From a virus: a stretch of 47,550 bases of DNA. Every line of letters starts with the position of its first letter. The first letter of the stretch is position 1. The stretch is from IMG/VR virus record IMGVR_UViG_3300021495_000009, positions 1-47,550 of that record. One strand, given 5' to 3'. Shown piece by piece: positions 4,610-41,329 of the stretch. The notes below the pieces were generated by a model that did not search any database, was not told the DNA's origin, and worked only from the letters and a program-made list of their open reading frames with translations. Made by a program: the position numbers and the translations under genes.

Positions 4610-5075
4610 TGCTTTCGTCTCCTTGGTTGAAAGTTATGTATCTGTTTTCTACTAAACATATTAGCATTTCAGCAAAAGCATTAGGAAGAGTAAATGCACA
4701 TCGGCCTAATGTGCCATAAGTAATACACCAACCTTTGTTATCATAAGTTCTATATAAGTGTAATCCATAAACTTCAACATTAAAAGCTGTACCCTTTTCT
4801 GCATCTTTTTTCAAATAAAGTGGCAACCATTTATCCATTTCTGGACAAGTAGGTGCTTTAATATAATCTTGTAAATGATGATATTCAAATATAAAAAATT
4901 CTTCATATTGTTTTGGTTTGTAAAAATACATTTTATCCATAGTGAAAAATAAATCATAGAACTCGCTATCTTTCCTTAAGCACCAAAACCAGCCTGGTTC
5001 TTTTTGGGGAAACCCTAATTCCTTTAACTTCTTACTTAATTCTACTGAGGGAACTTCTTTTTTTGCCCAGTCCAT
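4584..5075 (-). CDS. Phage conserved hypothetical (163 aa)
   Basis: The N-terminus, VELSKKLKELGFPQKEPGWF, is a pattern met in many phage accessory proteins of unknown function. A later segment (CPEMDKWLPLYLK) and a C-terminal FAEMLICLVEN also match that type. These proteins often sit in early regions of siphoviruses; no activity is established. The ATG overlaps the stop of the upstream gene (TAATG). Confidence 0.7.
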   Translation of the reverse strand: MDWAKKEVPSVELSKKLKELGFPQKEPGWFWCLRKDSEFYDLFFTMDKMYFYKPKQYEEFFIFEYHHLQDYIKAPTCPEMDKWLPLYLKKDAEKGTAFNVEVYGLHLYRTYDNKGWCITYGTLGRCAFTLPNAFAEMLICLVENRYITFNQGDESNAQSRQQT

Positions 5076-5242
5076 TATTTATTCTCCTCCATTTCTTTTA
5101 AAAAATTCTCTATTAGTAAACGAGCATAGGATTTAAAAAACTCAACAAGCCTATCTATTTTCTTTAACTCCTCCCATGTAGCACCTTGTAAATCTCCTGA
5201 AGAAGATATTAGTTTTGCTATCTCTCGTTTAATTTCTTTCAT
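5075..5242 (-). CDS. Small helical protein (55 aa)
   Basis: Starts at ATG 5242 behind GAAAGGAGA. The product is helical and charged (MKEIKREIAKLISSSGDL...KKIDRLVEFFKSYARLL). It ends with TAATG shared with the next gene and starts 14 bases inside the previous one, so it sits in a translationally coupled chain. No function recognised. Confidence 0.65.
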   Translation of the reverse strand: MKEIKREIAKLISSSGDLQGATWEELKKIDRLVEFFKSYARLLIENFLKEMEENK

Positions 5243-6932: not shown

Positions 6933-8102
6933 CTATGCCAATCTTTTGAATTTTTCTGTATCATTGCCAAAAACATCCCAACCTTTTCTTTTTTCTCTAC
7001 TAAAAACATCAAGACGCCTACCAACAGTTATTTCCTCGACCATCTTATAAAAAGTTTCGGGTTTTCGGCTATGTTCTCGCCTTGGTTCTCTGATAATATC
7101 TCTCCACTTTGTATTTTCCCATATTGGTTTACCTTTTATGCCAATTAAACAAAATTCACATTGCATACTTAACCAGTGCCCCATTCCTATTTTTTTTTTA
7201 TCCCATACCAATATCCCTTTATAATCAAAACCCCATTTATCAAGTAATTCTTTTGCATCAAAGATAAAAGCATGGGTTGTCCATAAAAAACATACAGCAT
7301 TTGAGGCAAAAGGTATCCTTAATTGCAATAATTCCTCTTTGCTCATTTCAGGATATGGGCTTGCAACTCTTGAGCCATCAGGGTCATATTTCCTGCCATA
7401 ATTCCAAGGTGGGTCAATAACAACAACTTCATATTCACCTTGAGGTAAATTTATTTTTCCTTTTTTAATTGCTTCTTTTTGTTGTTCAATTTCTTCTTGC
7501 CGTTCATATATCTTTAAAGCTTTCCCAATAGGAATATCTTTTTCTTTTATCATCCTAATAATTTTTTCTCTTTTTTCTTTTGGTTTATGATAAAGCTCAA
7601 TAATATCCTTTTTTGGATTTTGCTTTAGAATTTCTTTAGGTATTTCTTTTGTTAATTCTTCCACTGCCTCGGCTAGTTGGGCGTCACGGTGAATAGTTAA
7701 CGAGCTTACGCCTGTTTCTTGTGCTATTTTTTCACGGGTCTTAAGGTGTTCAAAATGAACACCTTTTGGCCTCCCAACTTCTTTCTTCTCCAACAAATAC
7801 TTCTTGCCTCTTAAAACACTTGCTTCAAAAGGGTCTAAATTCCGTCTGCTTAATTGGTTATCTATTACCCAGTTGATTGCTTCTTTACGACTGTTAAAGG
7901 ATATATATCTAAACTTTGGTTCTATGCCGTATTTTTCACAAATTTTTAATCGGTGGTGTCCATCTAAAAGAATGTTTTGTTCCTTCCATACAACCAATGG
8001 TTCAGTAAAACCCTCATTCAAGATTTTTTCTTCAAGCCCTTGATATTCTTCTGATTTTAATGGTGGTATTAGTTTCTCAATTTCAGGGTCAATTTTCATC
8101 AT
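6933..8102 (-). CDS. ParB/Srx-like domain fused to MT-A70 adenine methyltransferase
   Basis: Residues 1-90 form a ParB/sulfiredoxin-like domain with the signature LLDGHHRL at 45-52. Residues 95-215 hold a helix-turn-helix (REKIAQETGVSSLTIHRD) and a charged linker. The C-terminal half is an MT-A70-type N6-adenine methyltransferase with the DPPW motif at 230-233 and a WTTHAF strand near 275. Such fusions are known in phages and probably methylate DNA, as an anti-restriction or regulatory activity. RBS GGGGGAGG precedes ATG ATG at 8102-8097. A structured leader with a terminator-like stem lies directly upstream, so expression is likely attenuated. Confidence 0.9.
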   Translation of the reverse strand: MMKIDPEIEKLIPPLKSEEYQGLEEKILNEGFTEPLVVWKEQNILLDGHHRLKICEKYGIEPKFRYISFNSRKEAINWVIDNQLSRRNLDPFEASVLRGKKYLLEKKEVGRPKGVHFEHLKTREKIAQETGVSSLTIHRDAQLAEAVEELTKEIPKEILKQNPKKDIIELYHKPKEKREKIIRMIKEKDIPIGKALKIYERQEEIEQQKEAIKKGKINLPQGEYEVVVIDPPWNYGRKYDPDGSRVASPYPEMSKEELLQLRIPFASNAVCFLWTTHAFIFDAKELLDKWGFDYKGILVWDKKKIGMGHWLSMQCEFCLIGIKGKPIWENTKWRDIIREPRREHSRKPETFYKMVEEITVGRRLDVFSREKRKGWDVFGNDTEKFKRLA

Positions 8103-8621: not shown

Positions 8622-9866
8622 TTAAAATAATTCTTCCAGTTCCTTTGCTTTGGTATCAATGGTTAAATAAATTTCCGTTGCTTCTTCTTCGTTTGGAATG
8701 TCATAAACACTTTCATATCCTTTTTCCTTTAAAACTTCATCAACTAGTTTAGAGTCATAGTTTGACAATTGGTCTATAAATTCTACAATCCATTGAGGCT
8801 GAGCTTTCTTTTCTGGTTTAGTTTTTTTAGGTTTTGGAGTAGGAGTAGCAGGCTTATTTTTTGTTTCCCATTCTTTAAATTTCTCTACAAAACTATCCAT
8901 TTTCTTAATGGCTTTTTCTTTTACATACTCCACTGAGCAATTAACACCCTTCGCTACCGTTTCAATATATTCTTTTACTCTTTCTTTATCTAAACCTCTT
9001 TCAGCAATCATATCCTCAAAGCTTAATTCTCTTTTTGGTTCATGAGCTTGGTCTTCAATTTGTTTGGGTTTTTCTTCTTTTTTCTTTTTTTCTTCTTTAG
9101 TCTCTGCATTCTCTACATCAATTACTTTGCCTTGGAAAGTCATTTCTTCTTTAGGTTCTTCTTCAACACTAGGCAACCCAAAATCCTCTTCCTCTTCAGA
9201 AATTGCCAATTCTAATTCAGGAGTTTTTGGTTTCATCTTTAACATTTTCAAGATGGCACTCTTACGCATCATGCTTTCAGGCCACAAATGCCAAGGGCTA
9301 TCTTTACGACCTGATTGTTCAGCCTTTTGATAAGCTAAAGACATATTTCTTCTTTTCTCAATTTCTTCCATTCTGATAATATCAAAACTTTCTTTATCAT
9401 CCTTTCTCCATACAGCGTAAGCTAAATAAGGTTTCCCTGGGTTTTTGGGTGCTGGTTTATGATGCACATAAGCATCAGTGCCCAGTTGATAATCAAACTT
9501 ATCGTTCTCATAGACTACATGGGCTTCTACTTCAGCTCCTGTAACTCTATAAATTAGCTCAATTAACCCCTGATAACCAATTTGAGCATTACACTCTATT
9601 GGATGACCTTGTTTCCTATTATTACGCCTTGGTATTAGATAGACATTATCTCCGCCTGGCAATAAACCCCACTCCGCACATTTCAATAACGCATTCAATA
9701 GACTTTCAGGAGTGCATTGTTGTAGCTGTGGGTTTTTAAATAAAGCATTCCAGAAAGCGGCAATCAAGACATCCTTTTTTATCCACTTAGGCAACACTTT
9801 TAATTTTTCACTTGTTTCAGGAGAAACCAGTTTAGCCTTGATAACTTCTAATTGATTTTTTTTCAT
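8622..9866 (-). CDS. recT: RecT-family single-strand annealing protein
   Basis: Residues 1-230 match the RecT core: TPESLLNALLKCAEWGLLPG, CNAQIGYQGLIELIYR, YLAYAVWRKDD, SPWHLWPESMMRKSAILKM. RecT anneals complementary single strands and promotes strand invasion after exonuclease resection. The protein is much longer than usual (414 versus about 270-300); the extra C-terminal part is a charged linker then two small helical segments (SFEDMIAERGLDKERVKEYI and WIVEFIDQLSNYDSKLVD). The Cas4/RecB-like exonuclease at 11303-11818 is the probable partner. Confidence 0.93.
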   Translation of the reverse strand: MKKNQLEVIKAKLVSPETSEKLKVLPKWIKKDVLIAAFWNALFKNPQLQQCTPESLLNALLKCAEWGLLPGGDNVYLIPRRNNRKQGHPIECNAQIGYQGLIELIYRVTGAEVEAHVVYENDKFDYQLGTDAYVHHKPAPKNPGKPYLAYAVWRKDDKESFDIIRMEEIEKRRNMSLAYQKAEQSGRKDSPWHLWPESMMRKSAILKMLKMKPKTPELELAISEEEEDFGLPSVEEEPKEEMTFQGKVIDVENAETKEEKKKKEEKPKQIEDQAHEPKRELSFEDMIAERGLDKERVKEYIETVAKGVNCSVEYVKEKAIKKMDSFVEKFKEWETKNKPATPTPKPKKTKPEKKAQPQWIVEFIDQLSNYDSKLVDEVLKEKGYESVYDIPNEEEATEIYLTIDTKAKELEELF

Positions 9867-19784: not shown

Positions 19785-20080
19785 GAAACGCAGGAATATC
19801 AAGGGTTTCAGAGGTGTTTGGAAAGCCTACAGCCTCAAGGGTTTCAGGGGTATGTTCTAGGATGCAGGAATAATAAGGCTTTCAAAGGCATGGCTGAAAC
19901 ATAGAATTGACAAGGGTTTTAGGTGCGTGCTTGAAATGTAGGATTGATAAGGCTTTCAAGGGTGGTTCTAGGATATAGGATTGATAAGGGTTTGAGAAGC
20001 ATGGCTAAAAGGCAATAATGACAAGGCTTTCAAAGGGGTATCTGGAAGGCAATAATAGCAAGGGTTTTAGGAGTGGGTAA
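19785..20080. repeat. 37-bp degenerate tandem repeat array A (8 units)
   Basis: The core CAAGG or TAAGG recurs at 19800, 19836, 19874, 19911, 19948, 19985, 20022 and 20059, spacing 36, 38 and then 37 five times. Consensus about GAAACGCAGAAATAG then CAAGGGTTTCAGAGG. Many junctions have TTTCA...TGAAA inverted arms around a loop of 10. The units vary, unlike CRISPR repeats. Period 37 rules out a protein frame. Candidates: iterons of an origin, centromere-like site or repeat RNA. Confidence 0.8.
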
Positions 20081-26046: not shown

Positions 26047-26353
26047 TATAATCCTCCCGTATATCAATAATTTTATAATGCTTGTTTCCTTGTTTATCTT
26101 CAGTCATTTCAAATTCAAAGATGTAATGAGGAATTCTAAACATTATTTCTATTATATCACAACATCTAAATTTTGGGTGATAAGCTGTATATTCAATCGT
26201 TTCTTGCCAAGGATTATATTTTGCATCTATAATAATAAATTCAGAAAATAAAGTTCTTAATTGTTTTAAAAATTCCTTGTCTTCTTCACTAATTGCTTTG
26301 CGTAATATTTCTGTTGCTATATGGAATTTCCCAATTCTTAATTTTTGTTCCAT
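26036..26353 (-). CDS. Tandem paralogue 1 (105 aa)
   Basis: ATG 26353 has AGGAGGAAAGAGGAA upstream, so it is the start. Core LRKAISEEDKEFLKQLRTLF is identical to that of the next gene upstream. The 101 bases 26219-26319 are identical to 26619-26719. After the core, the products diverge. No family recognised. The shared part forms an alpha/beta unit ending FIIIDAK. Confidence 0.7.
   Translation of the reverse strand: MEQKLRIGKFHIATEILRKAISEEDKEFLKQLRTLFSEFIIIDAKYNPWQETIEYTAYHPKFRCCDIIEIMFRIPHYIFEFEMTEDKQGNKHYKIIDIREDYNAI
26219..26319. repeat. 101-bp direct repeat, copy 1
   Basis: Identical to 26619-26719, exactly 400 bases away. It lies inside two tandem paralogous genes. Perfect identity next to diverged flanks implies recent duplication or gene conversion. 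Confidence 0.9.
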
Positions 26354-26447: not shown

Positions 26448-26768
26448 TTATATTTCCTCCCACATATCAATATTAACAATTGTGTAATGCTCATTGTTCT
26501 GTTTATCTATGATTTCTTTAAGTCCAATGATGTAAATAGGTATCTTATTGCCTTCTGGGATGGGTCGGAACTTTGGATGATAAGCTGTATATTCAATCAT
26601 TTCTCGTGCAAAGTTACATTTTGCATCTATAATAATAAATTCAGAAAATAAAGTTCTTAATTGTTTTAAAAATTCCTTGTCTTCTTCACTAATTGCTTTG
26701 CGTAATATTTCTGTTGCTACATGAAACTTACCAATTTTTAAATATTTTGTTTGGTAATGTTTTTTCAT
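26448..26768 (-). CDS. Tandem paralogue 2 (106 aa)
   Basis: Product YLKIGKFHVATEILRKAISE... matches the 26036-26353 gene over residues 9-65. The C-terminal part (NKIPIYIIGLKEIIDKQNNEH) is diverged but keeps the same length and a related DKQ-N-HY-I ending. Function unknown. Part of the duplicated 400-bp unit. Confidence 0.7.
   Translation of the reverse strand: MKKHYQTKYLKIGKFHVATEILRKAISEEDKEFLKQLRTLFSEFIIIDAKCNFAREMIEYTAYHPKFRPIPEGNKIPIYIIGLKEIIDKQNNEHYTIVNIDMWEEI
26619..26719. repeat. 101-bp direct repeat, copy 2
   Basis: Identical partner of 26219-26319, offset by exactly 400 bases. Confidence 0.9.
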
Positions 26769-28461: not shown

Positions 28462-30024
28462 TTGAGTGATTTAGAGGTGATTGAACTTAATTTTAACAGT
28501 AGAGGTTTAGCACCGTCTTTAAGAAAAATTTTTCAAAAAGACCCATTAATTTTTCCTGAGAAAGTTTTAGGAGTTACTCTTTGGGATAAGCAAAAAGAAA
28601 TTTTTAGAGCTATCTATGAGAATGAACGAGTTGCAGTGCCTGCATGTAATCATGCAGGCAAAACTCATACCGCTGCATGTCTAACCCTTGCATTTCTTTT
28701 TACATATTATCCTTCTAAAGTTATTACAACTTCAGCATTCAAAGAACAAGTTAAGGATGCATTATGGAGTGAAATCAGAACCAGAGTGAGATATTCAAGA
28801 ATACCGTTAATGGAAGAAAAGCATGTAACAACTATGGGAATAAATTTAGGCCCTGATTGGTATGCTGTGGGTTTAAGACCTCAAGACTCTTCTCAAGAGG
28901 CTTTCCAAGGAAGGCATAGCCCTAATATATTATTAATTCTGGACGAATCAAGTGGGGTAGGTGAGAATATTTGGGAATCAGCCGAAGGATTGATGACCTC
29001 TGCCAATTGTCATTGGCTTGCACTTGGCAACCCATTTGACCCATTATCCCCATTTGGAGAAGCCTGTAATAGCGATGAATGGGTAACCATTCATATCTCG
29101 GCTTATGATACACCTAATGTTAAGGCAGGAAGGAATATTTATCCTCGGTTAATGCCTTGGGATTGGCCTGAGAAAAAGAAAAAGCAGTGGGGTGAAGATA
29201 GTGCGAGATACCAAATTAGAGTTTTAGGCCGATTTCCTGAAAGAGAAGAAGAAAAGTTAATTCCTTATTCACTCGCAAAACAAGTCTTTGAAAGAAAATA
29301 TAATCGTTGCACTGATGAGACACTGGTAATTGGTCTTGACCCAGCAGGATTAGGAAAAGATAAAACAGTTTGGGTGTTAAGACAAGGCTCATCCATTGTT
29401 ACAATAAAATGGGTTTTAAATGCAACGGATGAGGCAATTGGAAGAAGAACTTTAGAATTAGCAGAGATTTATAGAAGTGCTAACAAACCAACGATTATTA
29501 ACATAGATGGTGGATGGGGCAAAGGGATATATGAATATCTCAGGAAACATGGTAATCCTGAAAAAGTAAAAATTAACTTGGTTTTTTTATCATCCAAACC
29601 AGAAAATGATGAAAATGAATATTATAATTTGAGAACTCAAGTTGGTTTTAGATTGAAAGAGGCTATAGAAAGAGGATTATGTTTATCTCCATCAGCTAGA
29701 ATAGTAAAGGATGCTTGGCTATCTGATATAACTGCTATAAAAGTCATTGAAGACCCCAGAACTGGAAAAAGAAAATTAGAGAATAAAAGAAAGCTGAAGA
29801 AGCGGTTGAAGCGTTCTCCCGATTTTTTAGATGCTACATTACTTAGCTTTGTTTCAAGTTATAGAACTCCTCCTGCTATGGTAACGGTCTCGGAATTTCA
29901 ATATAAAGAAGCAAACAAAGAAATGATTGATAACTCTATGTTTCCATCTATGATGCACCAATTCAAGATTAAAAGAAGAAATCCAATATTCTTTTTCAGA
30001 AATAACATCAGGAGGTTCTCATGA
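28462..30024 (+). CDS. Terminase large subunit (TerL)
   Basis: The motor that packages DNA. Walker A is ACNHAGKT at residues 61-68; Walker B LLILDE has D161-E162. The RNase-H-like nuclease domain has VIGLDPAGLGKD (D293), NIDGGWGKG (D349) and DFLDATLLSF (D457). Length 520 is typical. The start is TTG 28462 after GATAGGG. The N-terminal acidic DE adjoins SSGVGENIWES. It is followed by a coiled-coil membrane protein and then the portal, an unusual insertion. Confidence 0.95.
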   Translation: MSDLEVIELNFNSRGLAPSLRKIFQKDPLIFPEKVLGVTLWDKQKEIFRAIYENERVAVPACNHAGKTHTAACLTLAFLFTYYPSKVITTSAFKEQVKDALWSEIRTRVRYSRIPLMEEKHVTTMGINLGPDWYAVGLRPQDSSQEAFQGRHSPNILLILDESSGVGENIWESAEGLMTSANCHWLALGNPFDPLSPFGEACNSDEWVTIHISAYDTPNVKAGRNIYPRLMPWDWPEKKKKQWGEDSARYQIRVLGRFPEREEEKLIPYSLAKQVFERKYNRCTDETLVIGLDPAGLGKDKTVWVLRQGSSIVTIKWVLNATDEAIGRRTLELAEIYRSANKPTIINIDGGWGKGIYEYLRKHGNPEKVKINLVFLSSKPENDENEYYNLRTQVGFRLKEAIERGLCLSPSARIVKDAWLSDITAIKVIEDPRTGKRKLENKRKLKKRLKRSPDFLDATLLSFVSSYRTPPAMVTVSEFQYKEANKEMIDNSMFPSMMHQFKIKRRNPIFFFRNNIRRFS

Positions 30025-30565: not shown

Positions 30566-31873
30566 TTGCCATATTTTATCAAAAAACCAAGTCCTAAGCC
30601 TGCAAGATTTTTTGAAGCTACTAAGCTTTCTTTGCCAGGTGGTGAAGAAACAAAAGAAGAAGATTGGGCTGGGTGGAGAAAAATCTCTGGTATAGGATTG
30701 TTAAGAGAGTTACGCACCGATGTATTCGTTAAGATGAGTCGTTTAGCCAAATGGCTTTATGACTCAAACCCCTTAGCCAAAAGGATAATTGAATACATCA
30801 AGAACTTTGTGGTAGGAGAAGGAATTTATTTTGAAACCACCGATAAACGAGTTCAAGAAGTATTAAATGCGTTCTGGTTTGATGATGTAAATAATTGGCC
30901 TCTTAAACAGCACGATAGAATTTTAGAGTTATGTCTTTATGGTGAGTGTATTTGGCCTGTTACAGTAAATCCTGCTAATGGTCATATAAGATTAGGATAT
31001 ATTGACCCTTTGGAAGTTAAAAAGGTTGTGCCTCATGAAGAAAATTGTTTGATTTTGGATAAGATTATTTTATATGCTCCTCTCAATAAGAAAAACGGTA
31101 AAAAAAGAGAACTCAAGATAATTCGTAGAGATGAAAACCCAAATAGCGATACCTATGGATACCTAACAGGTGAAACCTTTTTCTTTGCCATTAACAAAGT
31201 TTCAAATGCGACAAGAGGTGCAAGTGATTTGCTACCCTTGATAGATTGGATTGACTCTTATGACCAGTTCTTATTCACAAGACTTGAAAGACAAATGAAT
31301 ATCAATAATTTTTGTTGGGATGTAACCCTAGAGGGTGCAGATAAACATGAAATAGAACAATTCCTTGATAATTTACCACCTCCTTCGCCTGGGACAATTA
31401 GAGCACATAACGAGAAAGTTAAATGGGATGTAGTTGCTCCTAAGCTTGAAGCAAGAGATGCAAATCAAGAAAGCCGTTTGATAAGAAATCATATTCTAAG
31501 TGGTGCGGGGTTTCCACCTTATTATTTTGCAGATACAGAAGGAGTAAGGGCGGTTGCTTATGAGCAAGCTTTCCCTACTGAGAAGATGCTTATTACCAGA
31601 CAGAAATATTTTAAAGCAATGATTGAATATGTATTCAATTTTGTGATAGACCAAGCAATTCTTCATAAAAGATTACCAAGGAATGTTAATCGTAAGTTTG
31701 AAATAATCTTTCCTGAAATCTCATTAAGAGATATAGAACGGTTGAGTAGAGCATTTAAGAATATCACTTTATCGATAGAGCATTTAAAGCAGAATAATTT
31801 AATTTCAGATGAAGAAGCTAAAAAGATTATTAGAAATCTCCTTAGTCAGATGGGCGTGGATTTAGAGAGATGA
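30566..31873 (+). CDS. Phage portal protein
   Basis: Portal signatures: SNPLAKRIIEYIKNFVVGEG (typical start of portal helices), RILELCLYGECIWPV, IRLGYIDPLEV, NATRGASDLLPLIDWIDSY and VAYEQAFPTEKMLITRQ. The portal ring is the DNA gate at one capsid vertex and the terminase docking site. Length 435 is usual. The start is TTG 30566 after CGGAGGAG. It overlaps the next gene by ATGA. Confidence 0.93.
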   Translation: MPYFIKKPSPKPARFFEATKLSLPGGEETKEEDWAGWRKISGIGLLRELRTDVFVKMSRLAKWLYDSNPLAKRIIEYIKNFVVGEGIYFETTDKRVQEVLNAFWFDDVNNWPLKQHDRILELCLYGECIWPVTVNPANGHIRLGYIDPLEVKKVVPHEENCLILDKIILYAPLNKKNGKKRELKIIRRDENPNSDTYGYLTGETFFFAINKVSNATRGASDLLPLIDWIDSYDQFLFTRLERQMNINNFCWDVTLEGADKHEIEQFLDNLPPPSPGTIRAHNEKVKWDVVAPKLEARDANQESRLIRNHILSGAGFPPYYFADTEGVRAVAYEQAFPTEKMLITRQKYFKAMIEYVFNFVIDQAILHKRLPRNVNRKFEIIFPEISLRDIERLSRAFKNITLSIEHLKQNNLISDEEAKKIIRNLLSQMGVDLER

Positions 31874-34800
31874 TGCGTATAACTGAACTTCATTTAGAGC
31901 AATTTAAAAAAGAAGGGGTTGATTATGACATTAAACATGCCAAAACTAGATGGAAAGAGTTGCTGTCTGATTTGCGTTTTTTAGGCAATAGTGGATACCC
32001 AAAATTAGTTAGAGGCGAGAAATGGTCAAACTGGGATATGGATGACCTTCTCAGTTATTTTGGTGCTATTGTTGATGCCCTTCGTTCTGTTTATTTCCCC
32101 TTGATACCTCCCTCTAAAGATGACCCAAGATATAATACAAGCTACTGGAAGGCTTATCGTAAGGCTGAAGAGAAAGGTTATATCAAATCTAAGCCACCTA
32201 AACCAGAAGAAGTATCTGAATGGGATAAAAAACGCAAAGATATAATCAAGACATCTTTAGAAGAAGCTAAAAGAAAGATAGATGGCCTTTATTTAACTTA
32301 TCCACATGGAGAGTTATTTTGGACAAAAGAGAAAACTTTGTTAGTGAAGACTAGAAAATTTGACTTATCTAAGCCTCATTACCTTATTGATGATGGTCTT
32401 TGTTATGGAATTATCTCATTCAAAGAACCCAAAAAAATTACCAAAAAGCAGTTCTTTACAGAGGATTTAAAGAAAAAACATCGCATCCTAGATACAGAAG
32501 CTTGGCAGTGGTGGAGAATGTCAAGAGACAATGCAGTTGAGCCTGAACTTTGGGCTTATGAGGTTAAAAAATTTGAACCGTTTGAAATACCTGAAAGAAT
32601 AAAAATACCAAAAGGCATACAGGTTATAATTGATGCAGATAATATTGAATTTGTGGGAAAGGATGAAGAACAACCTGCAAGGATTGATTGGCCTACAATG
32701 ACTACCAAAGAAGCAAGGACTGATTACATTAAATTCTATGGCACTAAGGGATATATAGAAGAAGAGAACGATGAACATAAATACCATACCTGTATTTTGT
32801 TATCTTTAAATGACACAAATATCTTATTGGATTATGGTGAGAGGCATCCTGAAGAAATAAAAGAAAGAATAGATGTGGTATTGAATTCGCATCGGCACAT
32901 TGACCACATCTGTCCTGAAATATCAAACTTTGTTTGTCCTTTATATATATCAAAAGAAACTTTAAACAGAGTAGATTTCTCTTTGCCTGAAGATGCAAGA
33001 ATTTATGAAGCCAGAAAAGCATTTAGTATTGGTAATATAAAAATTATTACTTATCCAGTTTATCACTCCATCCGTGCTCCTATGCATATTTTCAAGATTG
33101 AGACAGATGACCTTGCAATTGGAGTAATGACTGATTTTTTGGCCTTTGAAGAAGTAGAAGATGAAGAATTTTTCTATCCAAATCTAGACATAGTCATAAT
33201 AGACGGTAGTAGCATTACAAAAGATTTAAGAAGATGGAAGGAAGACCATAACTTAATATTTGGTCATAAAAGCGTAATTCACCAAATTGAGAGAATTAGA
33301 GATAGATGTGAAAAAAATCCAATAATAATCCTCACTCATATTGGGCGTGAAGGCATAGAGTGGGGAGACTTACAAATATTACAATATTTACATGAAAGAT
33401 TTGCTGGAATGCACATATATATTGCCAAGGATGGAAGTGTATTTGATTTAAAAACAAGGCGGTTTACTGAGGCATTCAAAGGTGAGCAAATCTGTAAAGA
33501 CATAGTTGCAAACTTGCCTTCTTTTACATGGATACCTGAATTTACAAGCATTACAGGCTCTACTTTATTTACAAAAGACCATGCACCAAGAGACTTGGAT
33601 GTAATGTGCAAAGCGGAGGAGATAAATGGGAAATGGTATATACCTGTGGATACATCATTATTGCTTAAATTGCAACGAGCCTATCAATATGCAACAAAGA
33701 AAGTCTTAGGCAAGGCAATCAAGCCTGAGTTCCCACCTCCAAGCTCTGCGGGCCCAAATTGGGCTTCCATTCCTGCTTATGATTTAAAACTTGTGCCTAG
33801 AAAAAACCCAGAAGTAAGAAGGACAGGAGAAGAAGAGTTTGAAGAAAAGGTTTATGGAGTGGATTTTAAGGAGAAGCTAAGGTTACGCACCAAATCCAAA
33901 GATATTGAAAAAATGGCTCAGCAATCCCTAGAAGAGGATAAAGTCAAACCTCTTCGCTTTTTCATGCCTCTTAAGCCTATAAGAGTTCAAGGAAAGCATG
34001 GAGAAAGAAATACACCAGAAAGGCTAATAGAGTTATTTGAGCCTGAACATTATCCAGTTTATAACTCGGTAAAAAGGGATGGCTTCAGAACCATTCTAAT
34101 GCGAGATGGAGATAAAGTTGTAATTTATTCAGAAGATGGCAATGATATAACAAAACAGTTACCTACAATTGTTGATGCAGTTAAAAAACTTAAAGCAAAA
34201 TCAGTTGTTTTAGATGCTGAATGTGAGTTATGGGAAGATGGATACCATCATCCAAGAGAAGCAGCCATTGCTAAAATTCATTCTAAGGCAATAGATGATA
34301 AGGATTTAATTGCCAATTTATTTGATTGTGTGTATTTAAATGGTGAAGATTTACATAAAGAACCATTTGAAAAGAGATGGAAAGCATTAAATTCTCTTGG
34401 CATTAAATATTCAAAAGAAACTAATTTAAACCCAGAAGAAAAACTTAATATTATTCCCCATATCTTATGTAAAACTCCAAAAGAATTGCTTAGAGAAACA
34501 GAACGCATGAGAAAGGTTAGATCAAGTGAAGGCTGTGTAGCTATTGCCCACAATGCAACTTATCCATTGGATGGCAAACCAGATGACAATTCATTTTGTA
34601 AGTTTCACAATAATGTAGTTATAAGGGGAATAGTAATTGAACCTGTGCAAACAAAAGTAAGCACGGTATATAATTTATCCTTTGGCTGTTTAGCAGGCAA
34701 GCATGAAATCCTAAAGAAAGACCAGACAGAAGTAGGTCCTTATGAAAAAGTTTTAACCATAGGAAGCACTTTTGCTGCACCTTATGTAAAACGAGGTAGT

Positions 34801-36903
34801 GTAATTGAGGTTGAATGTGAAACAATTAACCATATTATACATGAAGATATTGAAGGTAATCCAGTAGAAATTACAGCTTGGGCACCTAGATTTATGCGGG
34901 TAGTGCCAGGTGCTAAGCCAGATAGCATAGATGATATTCTTAGAAAGGCTAGAAAAGAAAATCATGTTTTGCAAGAGAAAATAATCAAATCAGATGGCAC
35001 AGTAATATATAAAGAAGCAAGAAAAGAGCTTTATTGCTTTCTTACAGAAGAACCTACATTAACAAGCAAAATTAGTGATAGATTTGGTGCAGCTAAGTAT
35101 GCCATATTTTTTGAGCCTGCTACTTATCATTTTGAGGCAATAGATTTATCCAATTTTGTAACAGGGATTGAAATTACAAATTTAATAAAGGAACGCAAAG
35201 CTACAGAAGTTATTACAAATCAGATAGGAAGATTTAGCAGAGAAGCATTGAACAAAGCTGGAATTAAGATTATTTTTGCTCAAGGAAAGGTTGAAGATTA
35301 TTTGAATAAAAAACTAGGTGAAAGTCCACTTTTAAAAGAAGCTATATTAAGAGAGCAAGACCCGTATATGCAGTATTTTGACGAAGATAAAGAGCATAAA
35401 TTTTGTGCCCATCACCACTACAGGTGTGCTTTAAAAGAAGTTTTAAAAGAAATAGGCAGAGAAGATTTATGGCCTAAAGAAGAACCAAGCCCAGAAGAAT
35501 GGGCTAAATTATGGCCTAAGTGGTGGCCTGAAATAAGAAAGGTATTGGAAGAATATTATGATGCACATCCCAATTTTGAGCATTCACCTAGCGTTCATTG
35601 TGATTTACGCATGGAGACTGATACCAAAGGAGTTTTAATTGGTTTTACTCTTAATGACCAAATTAAAGACCGTCCACAATTTTTTCCTTTGAGATTGAGA
35701 AAATCTGAAGGTAAATATAGTGCAGAGGAATATGATGATGACCCTGAAAATTGGAAAATAAACTATAATACTGGTGAATTTGCTAAAAGAGTTAAAAAGG
35801 GAGGAGCTAAAGCCCCTGTTTCATTGATAAGTGAACGCAAAAGTTCAGAACCTAGTAGTTGGTTAACTTATGAGGGCTTTCAATCTCCGAGAAATGTGGC
35901 TGCTACAAGATATGGCTATGCTGTATTGCATTTAATAAGAAAATTAGGCGTTGTTGAGACGGGTTATCAGAGTTCCTATTTCCATGAACTATTCTTACAT
36001 TTCCCTAAAGATGGCAATAAACCTCCATTTTATTGGAGATTGATGTTTAGATATTTAAAGCGTCCTTTTAAGGAAGCAATTGAAAGGCAAGATTATGAAA
36101 CATTATCAGAGTGTGTATATCTTGAAGATGGTGAGGCTTTAGAAGAAGGAATTTATTTAGAAGCAGAAAGAATTATACCCGTTTCAGAAGAAGGATGGGG
36201 CAAATTAGAAACAGGCTGGTTATGTATATATGGTGTTGATAAAACTCCTTACATTATTTCAGACCGTGCAGTTAAATTGAAACGCATGTGCCCTTATCCT
36301 TACAGTGCTTTACCCAGACATATTAAAAAGCAAATACCACCTGAGTTTCATTATTGGAAAGAAAAAGACATGAAGAAACGGATTGAGATAAGGGATGCCT
36401 TGGTTAAAGCTATCAAAGAGAAGAAAGTTATTCTAAAAGAAAGCATAGTAAGAGATTATATTCTCCAAATACATTACAGTGAGCCAGCCGAATTAATCAA
36501 GCGTCGTAGCCCAGCTCACAAACATTACGACCTCCGCATTGATGGAGACCTAAAAAAGAAAACAGGCCATATATTTCATGCAGTTTTAGAACTTAATCCT
36601 TTAGAAGTTGACTCCACCTCTGCATATTTAAAGAAATGTAAAGGAGATGAAGGCGGAGTGAATTGGATGGAGGTTGGGAAAAATAAGACAGTTAAGTTTA
36701 CTAAAGGATATGGAACATTTGAAAAGAATGAGCCTGGATATGTTAAAGCATTGGATTGGGGTAGAGTATTAGTTTTGGAAGACTCACCTTTATTTAAAAA
36801 GTTTCAATTTAAAGGTAAACAATTAAAAGGAATTTGGATAATGCACAGAAGTAGCCCTGAAACTGATATTTGGATTTTTGAGAGGTCAAAGGACATTGGT
36901 TAA
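31870..36903 (+). CDS. Giant multidomain MBL-nucleotidyltransferase-ligase-NifX-phosphoesterase protein (1677 aa)
   Basis: Domain order by motif: residues 1-135 helical; about 138-255 PUA/ASCH-like (LYLTYPHGELF, AYEVKKFEPFEIP); 290-535 metallo-beta-lactamase fold with H341, H343, D345, H346, H399, D422 and H490 all present; 555-620 Pol-beta-type NTase (TGS at 562-564, D575-L-D577); 700-915 ATP-dependent DNA ligase adenylation domain (K735 in VKRDGFR, SEDGNDIT 754-761, LDAECEL, EGCVAIA, K911), then an OB fold to about 1020; 1050-1155 NifX/Nitro_FeMo-Co-like (CFLTEEPTLTSKISDRFG); PE-like HCDLR at 1243-1247 and HYDLRI at 1552-1557. Probably end-processing and joining of DNA. Its place between portal and capsid suggests virion incorporation. 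No Ku gene is present. Confidence 0.85.
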   Translation: MMRITELHLEQFKKEGVDYDIKHAKTRWKELLSDLRFLGNSGYPKLVRGEKWSNWDMDDLLSYFGAIVDALRSVYFPLIPPSKDDPRYNTSYWKAYRKAEEKGYIKSKPPKPEEVSEWDKKRKDIIKTSLEEAKRKIDGLYLTYPHGELFWTKEKTLLVKTRKFDLSKPHYLIDDGLCYGIISFKEPKKITKKQFFTEDLKKKHRILDTEAWQWWRMSRDNAVEPELWAYEVKKFEPFEIPERIKIPKGIQVIIDADNIEFVGKDEEQPARIDWPTMTTKEARTDYIKFYGTKGYIEEENDEHKYHTCILLSLNDTNILLDYGERHPEEIKERIDVVLNSHRHIDHICPEISNFVCPLYISKETLNRVDFSLPEDARIYEARKAFSIGNIKIITYPVYHSIRAPMHIFKIETDDLAIGVMTDFLAFEEVEDEEFFYPNLDIVIIDGSSITKDLRRWKEDHNLIFGHKSVIHQIERIRDRCEKNPIIILTHIGREGIEWGDLQILQYLHERFAGMHIYIAKDGSVFDLKTRRFTEAFKGEQICKDIVANLPSFTWIPEFTSITGSTLFTKDHAPRDLDVMCKAEEINGKWYIPVDTSLLLKLQRAYQYATKKVLGKAIKPEFPPPSSAGPNWASIPAYDLKLVPRKNPEVRRTGEEEFEEKVYGVDFKEKLRLRTKSKDIEKMAQQSLEEDKVKPLRFFMPLKPIRVQGKHGERNTPERLIELFEPEHYPVYNSVKRDGFRTILMRDGDKVVIYSEDGNDITKQLPTIVDAVKKLKAKSVVLDAECELWEDGYHHPREAAIAKIHSKAIDDKDLIANLFDCVYLNGEDLHKEPFEKRWKALNSLGIKYSKETNLNPEEKLNIIPHILCKTPKELLRETERMRKVRSSEGCVAIAHNATYPLDGKPDDNSFCKFHNNVVIRGIVIEPVQTKVSTVYNLSFGCLAGKHEILKKDQTEVGPYEKVLTIGSTFAAPYVKRGSVIEVECETINHIIHEDIEGNPVEITAWAPRFMRVVPGAKPDSIDDILRKARKENHVLQEKIIKSDGTVIYKEARKELYCFLTEEPTLTSKISDRFGAAKYAIFFEPATYHFEAIDLSNFVTGIEITNLIKERKATEVITNQIGRFSREALNKAGIKIIFAQGKVEDYLNKKLGESPLLKEAILREQDPYMQYFDEDKEHKFCAHHHYRCALKEVLKEIGREDLWPKEEPSPEEWAKLWPKWWPEIRKVLEEYYDAHPNFEHSPSVHCDLRMETDTKGVLIGFTLNDQIKDRPQFFPLRLRKSEGKYSAEEYDDDPENWKINYNTGEFAKRVKKGGAKAPVSLISERKSSEPSSWLTYEGFQSPRNVAATRYGYAVLHLIRKLGVVETGYQSSYFHELFLHFPKDGNKPPFYWRLMFRYLKRPFKEAIERQDYETLSECVYLEDGEALEEGIYLEAERIIPVSEEGWGKLETGWLCIYGVDKTPYIISDRAVKLKRMCPYPYSALPRHIKKQIPPEFHYWKEKDMKKRIEIRDALVKAIKEKKVILKESIVRDYILQIHYSEPAELIKRRSPAHKHYDLRIDGDLKKKTGHIFHAVLELNPLEVDSTSAYLKKCKGDEGGVNWMEVGKNKTVKFTKGYGTFEKNEPGYVKALDWGRVLVLEDSPLFKKFQFKGKQLKGIWIMHRSSPETDIWIFERSKDIG

Positions 36904-37202: not shown

Positions 37203-39539
37203 ATGGAAAATTTCAAACCAAGTGATTTTTTAGAAACCTTCCAAGGCAAGTTCCTTCCTTTACTTGAATCGGCCAGAGGTGATGAATGGGATGTTGTTTT
37301 AATTGAGGCAGGCCGAAGTAAGGGAGGAAGTCAAGGGCAAATTTTATATCCTGAAGAAGTTCTCAAAAGAGCAGTTCCTCTCTTTGAAAATGCCAAGTGT
37401 TATGCCTTTGAATTTAGTGGTCAAATTTATGACCATCTTCCAGAGAATATCAAACAAGCAGTGCCTCAAGGTTTTGCAAAAAATCTTGTAGGTTATTTTA
37501 CTTCTCCTAAATTAAAGAAACTTCCCAATGGAAAGAAAGGTATAGTTGCAAAATTTCATGTCATAGCCGATTGGCTTAAATCTGCCCTTAAAAATGCTGG
37601 AAATAAACTGCCTGAGCTACTGGGCTTTTCCATAGATGCAGAGGGAATTGTTGATAGAAGTCAAGGCATGGCTTTGTCAATTGATAGAGTGGATAGTGTT
37701 GATTTAGTCACATATCCAGCAGCAGGAGGCAGATTTTTAAGAATGGTGGCATCTAGGCTTGCTGCCAGTATTGGAAAGCAAGAAGAGGGGCAAAAAGAAG
37801 GATTAAATAGAAAAGGAGGTAACAGCATGAACCCTATGTTACTGGCAATCAAAGGATGGAAAAGTGGTCTCCAAGAGGGACAGGCGGTAGAAGCTACTGA
37901 TGATGTAGTTTCTGCAATCTTTGGCAATGTATTGGATGAGGAAGTGATTAAAGAGTCTCGTGACGAATTAAAGGAGATTATTACTCAATGTGTTGGCTTT
38001 TTAAGTGAGGGAAAAGAAGAGTTAGCCGAAGCCCTTATTACAGGGATTGTTGAGGCTAAGAAGAAGAAAAAGAAAAAAGACGAGTATCCTACTCCAGCAG
38101 AAAAATATCCAGCACCTCAAAAGGCTTCTCAAGAAGAACCTAACGGTGATATGGAAGAGGCTAAAAAGAAAAAGAAAGATGAATATCCTGCTTATCCTGA
38201 AATTCAGAAGCAATCCCAAGATTTAGAAGCTCTCAAAAATGAGATTACCAGACTGAAGCTAGAGAAGTATTTAGAAGAAGCTCTTAAAGAGTCTGGTTTA
38301 ACCAGCGTATCTAAAGAGCAAATCAGAAACATGCAGTTTAGTTCTACTGAAGATATAGACAAGGCTATCGGAAATATGAAAGATTTAGAGGCCAAGTTTA
38401 TGCAGGAAGCTGGAGTTTCAAGCAAGGTTGAAGCAGGTAATACAGAAGGTGAAAAAGTATTGCAAATGATTGAGGATGTATTAGAGGGTAAATCTCATAG
38501 CATCAAAGAGGCTTATATCAGGTTTACTGGTGATAGAAAGGTAACTGGTTTAATTAAGGAATGTGCAGGACGGGGTAAGGCAAGGATTACTGCGAGCTTG
38601 ACGACTTCTGATTGGGCAGAAGCTCTAGGCGATACTTTAAGACGCAAACTTATAAAGGAATATAAAGTATCTGGATTAGATGACTGGAAAAAGATAGTAT
38701 CTGATATTGTGCCTTTACCTGATTTTAGAGACCAGCACTGGATTAGATTAGGTGGGTATGGTGAGCTTCCTTCTGTATCTCAGGGTGCGACTTATACAGA
38801 GCTAACTAGTCCAACAGATGAAGAAGTAACCTTGTCTGTCAGCAAAAAAGGTGGCCTTGAATCGGTCACACTGGAAATGATAAAGAATGATGACATTCTT
38901 GCAGTTAGACAAATTCCTAAACGGTTAGCAAGAGCTGCTGCACAGGCTCTCTACAATGCCATATTTGATGATATTTTAAAGGATAATGCAACAATCTATG
39001 ATAATGTTGCTTTATTCCATGCAAGCCATAGTAATTTAGGTTCTACAGCTTTATCGCCAACATCCTTTATGGCAACCAGAAAAGCGATGGGACAGCAGAC
39101 TGCTTATGGAAATAGTGAGGAATATTTAAATCTTTATCCTAAATACTTGATTGTGCCACTTGACCTTGAAGATACAGCATTCAAACTCTGTCATTCACCT
39201 GTATTTGTAAACACTGCGGAATATTACTCTGGTGGTGGTGCGGCTGAAGCTGCAACTACTCCTAATATTGTGCCTCAGAAATTTAAAACTGATTATATTG
39301 TAGTGCCTAGATGGACTGATGCTAATGATTGGATTGCTGTAGCCGACCCGAATATGTGTCCTACAATTGTTGTTGGCTTCTTAGATGGCAATGAAGAGCC
39401 TGAAATATTTATTCAAGACCAGCCTTCAGTTGGTAGCTTATTCTATGCTGATAAAATTGTTTATAAAATCAGGCACATTTGGGGCGTAGCCGTATTTGAT
39501 TATAGGCCGTTTTATAAACATGCTGTAACTGGTGGATAG
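37203..39539 (+). CDS. Fused head maturation protease, scaffold and major capsid protein (778 aa)
   Basis: Residues 1-185 look like a prohead serine protease (YDHLPENI with His78, LLGFSIDAEG with Ser143, VDSVDLVTYPAAGG). Residues 209-420 are a Lys/Glu-rich scaffold with two EAKKKKK...DEYP repeats and coiled coil. Residues 440-778 are a Mu gpT-type major capsid protein (TSDWAEALGDTLRRKLIKEY, VSQGATYTELTSPTDEEVTL, LARAAAQALYNAIF). A strong internal SD gives a start at Met209. Usually these are separate genes. The protease must cut itself free during maturation. Confidence 0.85.
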   Translation: MENFKPSDFLETFQGKFLPLLESARGDEWDVVLIEAGRSKGGSQGQILYPEEVLKRAVPLFENAKCYAFEFSGQIYDHLPENIKQAVPQGFAKNLVGYFTSPKLKKLPNGKKGIVAKFHVIADWLKSALKNAGNKLPELLGFSIDAEGIVDRSQGMALSIDRVDSVDLVTYPAAGGRFLRMVASRLAASIGKQEEGQKEGLNRKGGNSMNPMLLAIKGWKSGLQEGQAVEATDDVVSAIFGNVLDEEVIKESRDELKEIITQCVGFLSEGKEELAEALITGIVEAKKKKKKKDEYPTPAEKYPAPQKASQEEPNGDMEEAKKKKKDEYPAYPEIQKQSQDLEALKNEITRLKLEKYLEEALKESGLTSVSKEQIRNMQFSSTEDIDKAIGNMKDLEAKFMQEAGVSSKVEAGNTEGEKVLQMIEDVLEGKSHSIKEAYIRFTGDRKVTGLIKECAGRGKARITASLTTSDWAEALGDTLRRKLIKEYKVSGLDDWKKIVSDIVPLPDFRDQHWIRLGGYGELPSVSQGATYTELTSPTDEEVTLSVSKKGGLESVTLEMIKNDDILAVRQIPKRLARAAAQALYNAIFDDILKDNATIYDNVALFHASHSNLGSTALSPTSFMATRKAMGQQTAYGNSEEYLNLYPKYLIVPLDLEDTAFKLCHSPVFVNTAEYYSGGGAAEAATTPNIVPQKFKTDYIVVPRWTDANDWIAVADPNMCPTIVVGFLDGNEEPEIFIQDQPSVGSLFYADKIVYKIRHIWGVAVFDYRPFYKHAVTGG
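37811..37829 (+). promoter_or_regulatory. Internal RBS and start (Met209) for scaffold-capsid
   Basis: AAAAGGAGGT (37811-37820) is followed six bases later by in-frame ATG 37827. The protein from here begins MNPMLLAIKGWKSG and lacks the protease. Nested starts of this type are used by phage lambda for its scaffold. The ratio of full-length to short form would set protease copy number. Confidence 0.7.
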
Positions 39540-40132: not shown

Positions 40133-41329
40133 ATGGCACTAGCAAATTTTGAATACATCAACCCATCTCCAACTCTTTTCATTGTTACTGGATGTCCTCG
40201 TTCAGGAACTACCTTTCTAATTGAACAAATCAAAGAATACCTTAAAGTGCCAGTGTTAGGATATGACGACCTAGGTTTACATAGAGAATGGAAAACTGCA
40301 ATAGCAGCTAATTCCATTCTTTTGGGAGATATATTTGCAGATTTAAAACCAGAAATGCCTAACAATGTTAACATGGAAAAACAATTTGAAGAATTTAAGG
40401 AATTTCTTGTATCTAGTAAGGATGAGTTTATTGAGCATCCAATGTATTTTTTTAAAGACCCAAGGATTTGTTATACATGGCCATTCTGGATGAAATTATT
40501 TGAAATTAGGATTATTCATATAGTTAGAAAGTTTGAAGGTGTTTTTAATAGCATTGACCAAGTAGATAATGTTGGTGGTAAAGAAGTTAAGTTTAGATGG
40601 ATTAAGCCTAAAAATCAGTGGAAAATAATTTGGGAAAATCATGTAAATAAAGCTAGAGAAAGCAATGAATATCTACCTTATTTAGAGATACCATTTGAAA
40701 GTTTTGTTGAAAATCCAAAACCTTGGATTGAAAAGATTGCTAACTTTGTTAAAGCTCCTGAAAAATGTTTAAATTTAGGCAGTGGTTTAGCACCGAGGGC
40801 AGGGAAGGAATGGGTGAATTTAGATTATAACCCCGATTATATACCACCTGCTAAATATGGTGTAAATGGAGTTGTTGCAGATTTGGAAAGTCCATTGCCT
40901 TTTAAAGATAATACCTTTAGTTTTATTCTTGCAAACCATATCCTTGAACATATTAAAAATTATGAACAATTGATGTGTGAGATATATAGAGTATTAAAAA
41001 TTGGAGGCAGATTGATAATTAGAGTTCCTTATGCGTTTTGCCGTGCTGCAATAGCTGACCCATCGCATGTAAGACAATTTGTTCCAGAGTCGTTTTTTCA
41101 TTTTTTGCCTGATAATTTAGGGCCTGTTGCAAATCGTAAGTTCTGGGGAACATTCAAGTTAATTGATTTAGAAGTGATTAAACATGATAGGCCAGGGATA
41201 GATAGGGGTGAAGTCGGGAGCTTCTTTAGTGAAATTTTTTGTGAATTAGAAAAAATACCAAAGCAAGAGCCGCCTAAACCTAAATGGATTGAGAAAGAGG
41301 ATGAGCAAAGGCAAGGCGATAATATTTAG
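40133..41329 (+). CDS. Sulfotransferase-methyltransferase fusion (398 aa)
   Basis: Residues 10-205 have a sulfotransferase PAPS-binding loop, TGCPRSGTTFLIEQI (19-33), and the 3'-phosphate segment IRIIHIVRKFEGVFNSI (125-141). Residues 210-330 are a Rossmann methyltransferase: LNLGSGLAPRAGKEWVNLDY (213-232), acidic strand and ILANHILEHI (265-274). Sulfotransferases move sulfate from PAPS to sugars or proteins. A domain pair with a glycosyltransferase next door suggests tailoring of a glycan. No signal peptide. The RBS is weak. Confidence 0.85.
   Translation: MALANFEYINPSPTLFIVTGCPRSGTTFLIEQIKEYLKVPVLGYDDLGLHREWKTAIAANSILLGDIFADLKPEMPNNVNMEKQFEEFKEFLVSSKDEFIEHPMYFFKDPRICYTWPFWMKLFEIRIIHIVRKFEGVFNSIDQVDNVGGKEVKFRWIKPKNQWKIIWENHVNKARESNEYLPYLEIPFESFVENPKPWIEKIANFVKAPEKCLNLGSGLAPRAGKEWVNLDYNPDYIPPAKYGVNGVVADLESPLPFKDNTFSFILANHILEHIKNYEQLMCEIYRVLKIGGRLIIRVPYAFCRAAIADPSHVRQFVPESFFHFLPDNLGPVANRKFWGTFKLIDLEVIKHDRPGIDRGEVGSFFSEIFCELEKIPKQEPPKPKWIEKEDEQRQGDNI

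Follow-up and report, generated by a model that had tools for sequence, protein, structure and literature searches.

A virus gene in the head module encodes a 1677-residue chain with nucleotidyltransferase, DNA ligase and LigD-type phosphoesterase domains

Why would a virus encode the parts of a DNA end-repair kit on one very long chain, in the middle of the genes that build its head? The question is raised by IMG/VR virus record IMGVR_UViG_3300021495_000009, of which positions 1 to 47,550 were analysed (one strand, 5′ to 3′; this whole 47,550-nt stretch is called the window). Its gene at 31870–36903 is one uninterrupted frame of 1677 codons that starts within the stop codon of a portal gene (ATGA), and the gene order is portal, fusion gene, protease-capsid gene. 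A first-pass annotation made from the letters alone had already placed a single 1677-residue gene between portal and capsid, and the single open reading frame (ORF), the ATGA overlap and the matches of the flanking genes bear this out.

The multidomain architecture of the protein is near certain, and the protein represents one form of a broader family, so far undescribed, of multidomain enzymes that environmental head-tailed viruses encode in their head modules. The function that we favour, with about an even chance of being right, is that of a DNA end-healing-and-sealing protein that needs no Ku, is made with the head, packaged, and ejected with the genome. The features on which the analysis rests, with related loci numbered L002 and upwards, are as follows.

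31870–36903, plus strand: 1677-amino-acid fusion protein; single ORF, with homologous intact ORFs in L002 and L005
31870–32277, plus strand: N-terminal helical region, residues 1–136; helices in a low-confidence model, with a comparable region ahead of the ASCH-like domain in L016 and L017
32278–32664, plus strand: ASCH/PUA-like conserved domain, residues 137–265, so named from its sequence pattern; has homologues at the beginning of the L008, L014 and L016 proteins
32719–33459, plus strand: metallo-beta-lactamase (MBL) domain, residues 284–530, metal ligands H341, H343, D345, H346, H399, D422 and H490 (Pfam Lactamase_B_3, phrog_392)
33478–33822, plus strand: Pol-beta-type nucleotidyltransferase (NTase), GS 563–564, D575, D577 and D638; conserved in nearly all family members (family profile)
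33762–33763, plus strand: point, between W631 and A632, at which an intein is inserted in L005 (LAGLIDADG_3, 2.5e-7)
34018–34932, plus strand: ATP ligase nucleotidyltransferase core and OB domain, K735, E784, E887 and K911 (Pfam, 4eq5 match, family alignment)
35020–35349, plus strand: NifX/dinitrogenase-cofactor (RNase H-like) domain (Pfam Nitro_FeMo-Co 8.6e-8, model, Foldseek)
35344–36429, plus strand: PE1, a LigD-type phosphoesterase (PE) with C-terminal extension, H1183, H1243, D1245 and R1247, and W1331 at the Tyr88 position (hhalign, Pfam, PDB profile)
36451–36897, plus strand: PE2, a second LigD-type PE, Q1533, H1535, H1552, D1554 and R1556 (hhalign, family alignment)
30566–31873, plus strand: portal protein (phrog_10963, 3.5e-39); its stop codon shares ATGA with the next start
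37203–39539, plus strand: head maturation protease-major capsid fusion, 778 amino acids (Phage_capsid_4 1.6e-47; phrog_133, phrog_15531)
28462–30024, plus strand: terminase large subunit (PHROG phrog_2, 5.2e-29)

An intact gene with a conserved core

The odd length and domain mix of the 1677-residue chain might be taken for an assembly chimera of separate genes. However, the same fusion gene is intact in the independently assembled L002 (95% identical) and in L005 (76% identical), where it forms a 2036-amino-acid frame with an inserted intein, and its first two thirds are present in L003; the L004 copy is broken within its assembly. A chimera, the reservation that accompanied the first-pass annotation, is ruled out by the L002 and L005 copies, and we give it next to no weight. 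The L005 intein, of the LAGLIDADG type (L005:9900-11000, protein P0002), sits in the NTase a few residues ahead of the residue aligned with D638.

Ratios of nonsynonymous to synonymous substitution rates (dN/dS) between the window and L005 are 0.03–0.12 in each domain where they could be computed, PE1 being left out since its silent sites are too diverged. Between the window and L002 they are 0.00–0.14 in all domains except the N-terminal helical region, where the value is 0.30. These low ratios demonstrate that the domains are under purifying selection. Furthermore, every motif residue named in the first-pass annotation lies at its predicted position in the chain.

The ligase gives the strongest Pfam match (DNA_ligase_A_M, 1.5e-18, over the cut-off), and the nucleotidyl-transfer core is complete as predicted, with K735-R-D-G, SEDGND from residue 754, E784, EG at 887–888 and K911. 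The best stretch against the ligase structure 4eq5 runs from residue 695 to 1025 and includes the OB domain that had also been proposed. Across the family, the ligase K, G, E and EG-K motifs are near-invariant. The ligase family profile scores archaeal Lig1 proteins at up to 77 bits versus about 32 bits at most for archaeal ligases adjoining LigD-type PE domains. Thus, an origin of the ligase from LigD is not supported, and the term ‘LigD-like’ fits the PE domains and the architecture rather than the descent of the ligase. The chain also misses the NCBIfam LigD equivalog cut-off (57.9 versus 373 bits), and the N-terminal DNA-binding domain of Lig1 has no Pfam match in it. Elsewhere, a 1914-amino-acid member (L088:4228-9969) carries a second ligase-like domain (about 4690–5184) ahead of the usual core, and the metagenome-assembled genome (MAG) of L011 and L013, G001, has three separate ligase matches below the Lig1 cut-off on different contigs, which suggests several copies of this virus type in the bin.

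LigD-type PE motifs had been noticed, and they proved to belong to two domains that had not been separated. Profile alignment with hhalign against LigD PE gave probabilities of 95.4 for PE1 and 93.4 for PE2 (shuffled maxima 0.6 and 2.9) and scores of 59.6 and 49.9, where 100 column-shuffled controls reached at most 17.8 and 21.1. Pfam LigD_N is matched by 7 of the 19 PE1 domains in the family (best 1.8e-7), and the PE1 profile has five PDB matches, each of them a LigD-type PE structure (best 3p43, E=0.0043). Conservation in the family is 90% or more at the PE1 residues equivalent to LigD His42, His48, Asp50 and Arg52. PDB profile searches started from few sequences had returned no match for the NTase, the ASCH-like domain, PE1 or PE2; with larger family alignments, matches appeared for PE1 and, at a weak level, for the NTase. 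For scanning contigs, an alignment of nine PE1 sequences proved too diverse.

The NTase motif that had been read as Pol-beta-type (GS then DLD) is confirmed at 563–564 and 575–577 and supported by the family profile, and its G-[GS] and DxD elements are near-invariant among about 30 members. A 26-sequence NTase profile matched 23 PDB sequences at E values of 0.5–0.9, all in the Pol-beta superfamily and including terminal deoxynucleotidyl transferase (TdT) and the repair DNA polymerase X. These matches are individually insignificant, but because they are uniform in superfamily, the profile points weakly to an enzyme of Pol-beta/Pol X/TdT type. When the NTase was aligned by hhalign with the archaeal PF01909 set, the G-[GS]/DxD motif aligned above shuffles, with a probability of just 11%. 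In one locus (L018:5392-8085) the NTase domain is in tandem duplicate.

Variable domains and a wider family

All seven metal ligands of the MBL domain, listed by the first-pass annotation as an intact set, are present; the Pfam Lactamase_B_3 match (1.1e-6) is over the curated cut-off, and the ligands are kept in the distant L078 and L081 proteins. The proposed kinship with the nuclease Artemis has to be abandoned. Only 68 residues separate D422 from H490, which leaves no space for a beta-CASP domain and rules out an Artemis/SNM1-type enzyme. The other MBL matches are to generic metal-dependent hydrolases, and RNase_Z is matched weakly (E=0.061). The MBL domain follows the ASCH-like domain in the window clade, and is N-terminal, ahead of the ASCH-like domain, in L078 and L081. 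On the ligase tree its distribution requires two changes, and it has thus joined the family at least twice. The NifX domain was seen in the window clade only; its region of the predicted structure has a pLDDT (per-residue confidence) of about 71–89 and a Foldseek match to PH0822 (1.5e-5). Foldseek with the model of residues 1–700 gave no meaningful match, and a database search with the ASCH-like domain also returned none.

These findings settle only in part the idea that the chain unites two schemes of non-homologous end joining (NHEJ). MBL, NTase, ligase, OB and LigD-type PE domains do occur together; however, the MBL is not of the Artemis type and the ligase is not specially LigD-like. Nor is the domain set an isolated oddity. 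The archaeal methanotroph virus ANMV-1 and about 30 other loci share the core, to which MBL and NifX are add-ons, and the same fusion has been assembled independently in other contigs (76–95% identical).

To survey the family, hidden Markov models were built for each domain and the loci were made non-redundant. The complete core of NTase, ligase, PE1 and PE2 occurs in 22 non-redundant loci, 15 of which have it on a single chain; in L007, L017, L018 and L019 the core is spread over neighbouring genes. The order is mostly NTase-ligase-PE1-PE2, with NTase-PE1-PE2-ligase-XkdF protease in L089, L095 and L097. Homologues at the same location are found in IMG/VR contigs and on contigs from Methanophagales and Methanosarcinales genome bins. 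Because the named viruses most closely related to it infect anaerobic methane-cycling archaea, an archaeal host for the window virus is likely. Beyond ANMV-1, the core was not found among 50,697 phage records, and the inspected stretch of vir525, the closest match by terminase, shows no gene annotated as a ligase. The open literature searched yielded no paper on the fusion, nor any account of a virus family whose own head cluster supplies LigD-like enzymes for healing and sealing ends.

The window and most related loci with flanking sequence have portal, terminase, protease or capsid genes as neighbours. In seven loci, core domains share one ORF with a head-maturation protease. An XkdF-type protease is fused in L009 (Pfam 1.7e-23) and, by profile, in L089, L092, L094, L095 and L097, and in L018 core parts are fused to an unrelated head protease (phrog_976, 2.7e-28). 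Head-maturation proteases act inside proheads. The repeated fusion of core parts to such proteases makes packaging into the virion more likely. The protein could instead stay in the cell as a late replication or packaging enzyme that, before the genome is packaged, frees 3′ ends of blocking groups and closes nicks, either in the concatemer or at the packaging motor. Late expression would suit the head-operon position and the portal ATGA overlap, and ligase and PE domains are suited to nick repair, but the protease fusions indicate the prohead interior rather than the cytoplasm, and we consider this cell-bound role improbable, at perhaps one chance in five.

L017 and L019 carry a fused DNA adenine methyltransferase (D12). 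DNA is the most likely substrate, because of the type of ligase and because of these methyltransferase partners. An equally improbable rival is RNA repair, in which the same healing and sealing parts would mend RNA, such as tRNA, after cleavage by defence nucleases of the host, with the NTase working as a CCA-type enzyme, the ASCH-like domain as an RNA binder and the MBL as an RNase. RNA repair systems include small NTases and ligases, an ASCH/PUA-like domain recurs in the family, and the faint RNase_Z similarity of the MBL would fit. The PE of LigD can also remove 3′-ribonucleotides (PMC8656161). Against this, the best matches of the ligase lie in the DNA ligase family and among archaeal DNA ligases, the methyltransferase among the joined domains acts on DNA adenine, and the PDB matches of the NTase lean to DNA Pol X and TdT.

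Other features were noted in the window. A 398-amino-acid head-module gene at 40133–41329 has a sulfotransferase match (17–207) and a methyltransferase match (222–296). A 37-nt unit is repeated in tandem copies at 19857–20071, in a region without long ORFs, and a 178-nt direct repeat (26169–26346 and 26569–26746) has 90% identity and 400-nt spacing. On the minus strand, an MT-A70 methyltransferase and a RecT-family annealing protein are encoded at 6933–8102 and 8622–9866.

End healing and sealing without Ku

According to the model that we favour, the fusion protein would be co-produced with portal, protease and capsid, would enter the prohead and would then be ejected along with the genome. 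There, PE would yield clean 3′-OH ends, the NTase would add a nucleotide or fill a short gap, and the ligase would seal the DNA ends without Ku, such that the genome is circularised or its nicks and breaks are mended. The window clade would have gained the MBL metal hydrolase and the NifX-fold domain, with the DNA adenine methyltransferase joined elsewhere, as in protective payloads. We infer the packaging, the DNA substrate and the order of these steps; genome end joining after injection, which the first-pass annotation had suggested, is possible.

Several observations weigh against this model. Of the six active-site residues of LigD, PE1 has four; it departs at the His84 and Tyr88 positions, the latter being an invariant Trp. 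Since His84 or Tyr88 mutants of Pseudomonas aeruginosa LigD are inactive (PMC8656161), the chemistry or substrate of PE1 may differ from that of LigD PE. PE2 is degenerate in several members, with ANMV-1 and others lacking equivalents of H1552, D1554 and R1556. The third acidic residue of the NTase, D638 in the window clade, is D, N, E, R or A elsewhere. L092, L094 and L009 have no recognisable ligase or NTase; a degenerate ligase in the middle segment of L009 could not be shown (hhalign 0.2%). The AlphaFold models of residues 1–700 and 1040–1677 are poor (mean pLDDT 45 and 43) and usable for the NifX domain alone. Finally, as had been claimed at the outset, a search that covered the window, three MAGs and seven related contigs found no Ku, with Bacillus subtilis as a positive control, although the contigs may be incomplete. 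Any bridging of ends must therefore come from the protein itself, another factor or cohesive ends.

The loss of ligase or PE2 residues in some members, together with the neighbourhood and the protease fusions, might also indicate an internal protein of the head, or a scaffold, whose role is mainly structural and which was built from old enzyme domains. This we regard as very unlikely, because even very distant members have conserved catalytic residues in the ligase, NTase, PE1 and MBL domains and dN/dS is low.

The closest known counterpart is the ANMV-1 protein AJP62006 (KP703175), in which the same chain of NTase, ligase, OB, PE1 and PE2 lies directly behind the portal gene. It differs in having 866 amino acids, no MBL or NifX domain and a degenerate PE2, and it is annotated just as ‘ATP-dependent DNA ligase’; the words ligase and portal are absent from the main text of the ANMV-1 genome paper (PMC4372165). 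The preceding ANMV-1 gene (L006:1913-3193, AJP62005), annotated as a MutT-like phage hydrolase, matches Pfam Phage_portal_3 (3.2e-22) and is a mis-annotated portal. Adjoining the ligase gene is the gene (L006:5868-9368) of a 1166-amino-acid, very cysteine-rich repeat protein with a short MuF-like C terminus.

Among cellular systems, LigD of bacterial and archaeal NHEJ likewise combines PE, ATP ligase (KxDG, OB) and a nucleotide-adding domain on one chain, and its domain order is also shuffled among members (PMC8656161). In contrast, LigD has a primase-type polymerase and uses Ku, whereas the viral chain has a Pol-beta-type NTase, two PE domains and no Ku that we could find; primase/AEP polymerases had no match in the Pfam or NCBIfam domain tables of the 1677-residue protein.

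Among phage proteins, the polyvalent proteins (Iyer et al. 2017, PMC5512222) are very large and multidomain, are predicted to be delivered with DNA, and include some with Pol-beta NTases. The fusion protein resembles them in its size, its many domains and its place among head and packaging genes, and its own delivery into the host is predicted, with the fusions to head proteases as an indirect sign. They differ in that the main text of PMC5512222 contains neither LigD nor metallo-beta-lactamase and has ligases as RNA ligases only, whereas the fusion core is of a repair type. Annotated records of Pseudomonas and related phages contain methyltransferase-prohead protease fusions (phrog_1530), which likewise join a nucleic-acid enzyme to an XkdF-type protease, but those records showed no core of NTase, ligase or PE. 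Mycobacteriophages Omega and Corndog encode Ku and use host LigD (Pitcher 2006, cited in PMC7719229). As far as that citation goes, theirs is likewise viral end joining for infection, achieved by bringing Ku and borrowing host LigD; the window virus, unlike them, encodes PE, NTase and ligase domains itself, and the search for Ku gave no match.

That viruses recruit host end joining through Ku was known; for a LigD-like kit encoded in a viral head cluster we found no earlier description. The proposed function would also re-annotate the ANMV-1 gene and would provide a single-chain enzyme with potentially useful end-repair chemistry. We also offer, more tentatively than the function proposed for the window protein and with somewhat less than an even chance, a broader proposal for an archaeal, perhaps bacterial, virus family. 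Its members may deliver in the virion a Ku-independent end-joining machine, with a capsid-carried Pol X-type NTase, ligase and double PE that is often tied to a protease, that repairs or circularises the incoming genome and that carries swappable anti-defence modules such as the MBL hydrolase and the DNA methyltransferase. The family looks like an overlooked, widespread viral toolkit that may travel in virus particles, and, if it is packaged, some viruses would begin infection with a pre-made repair kit.

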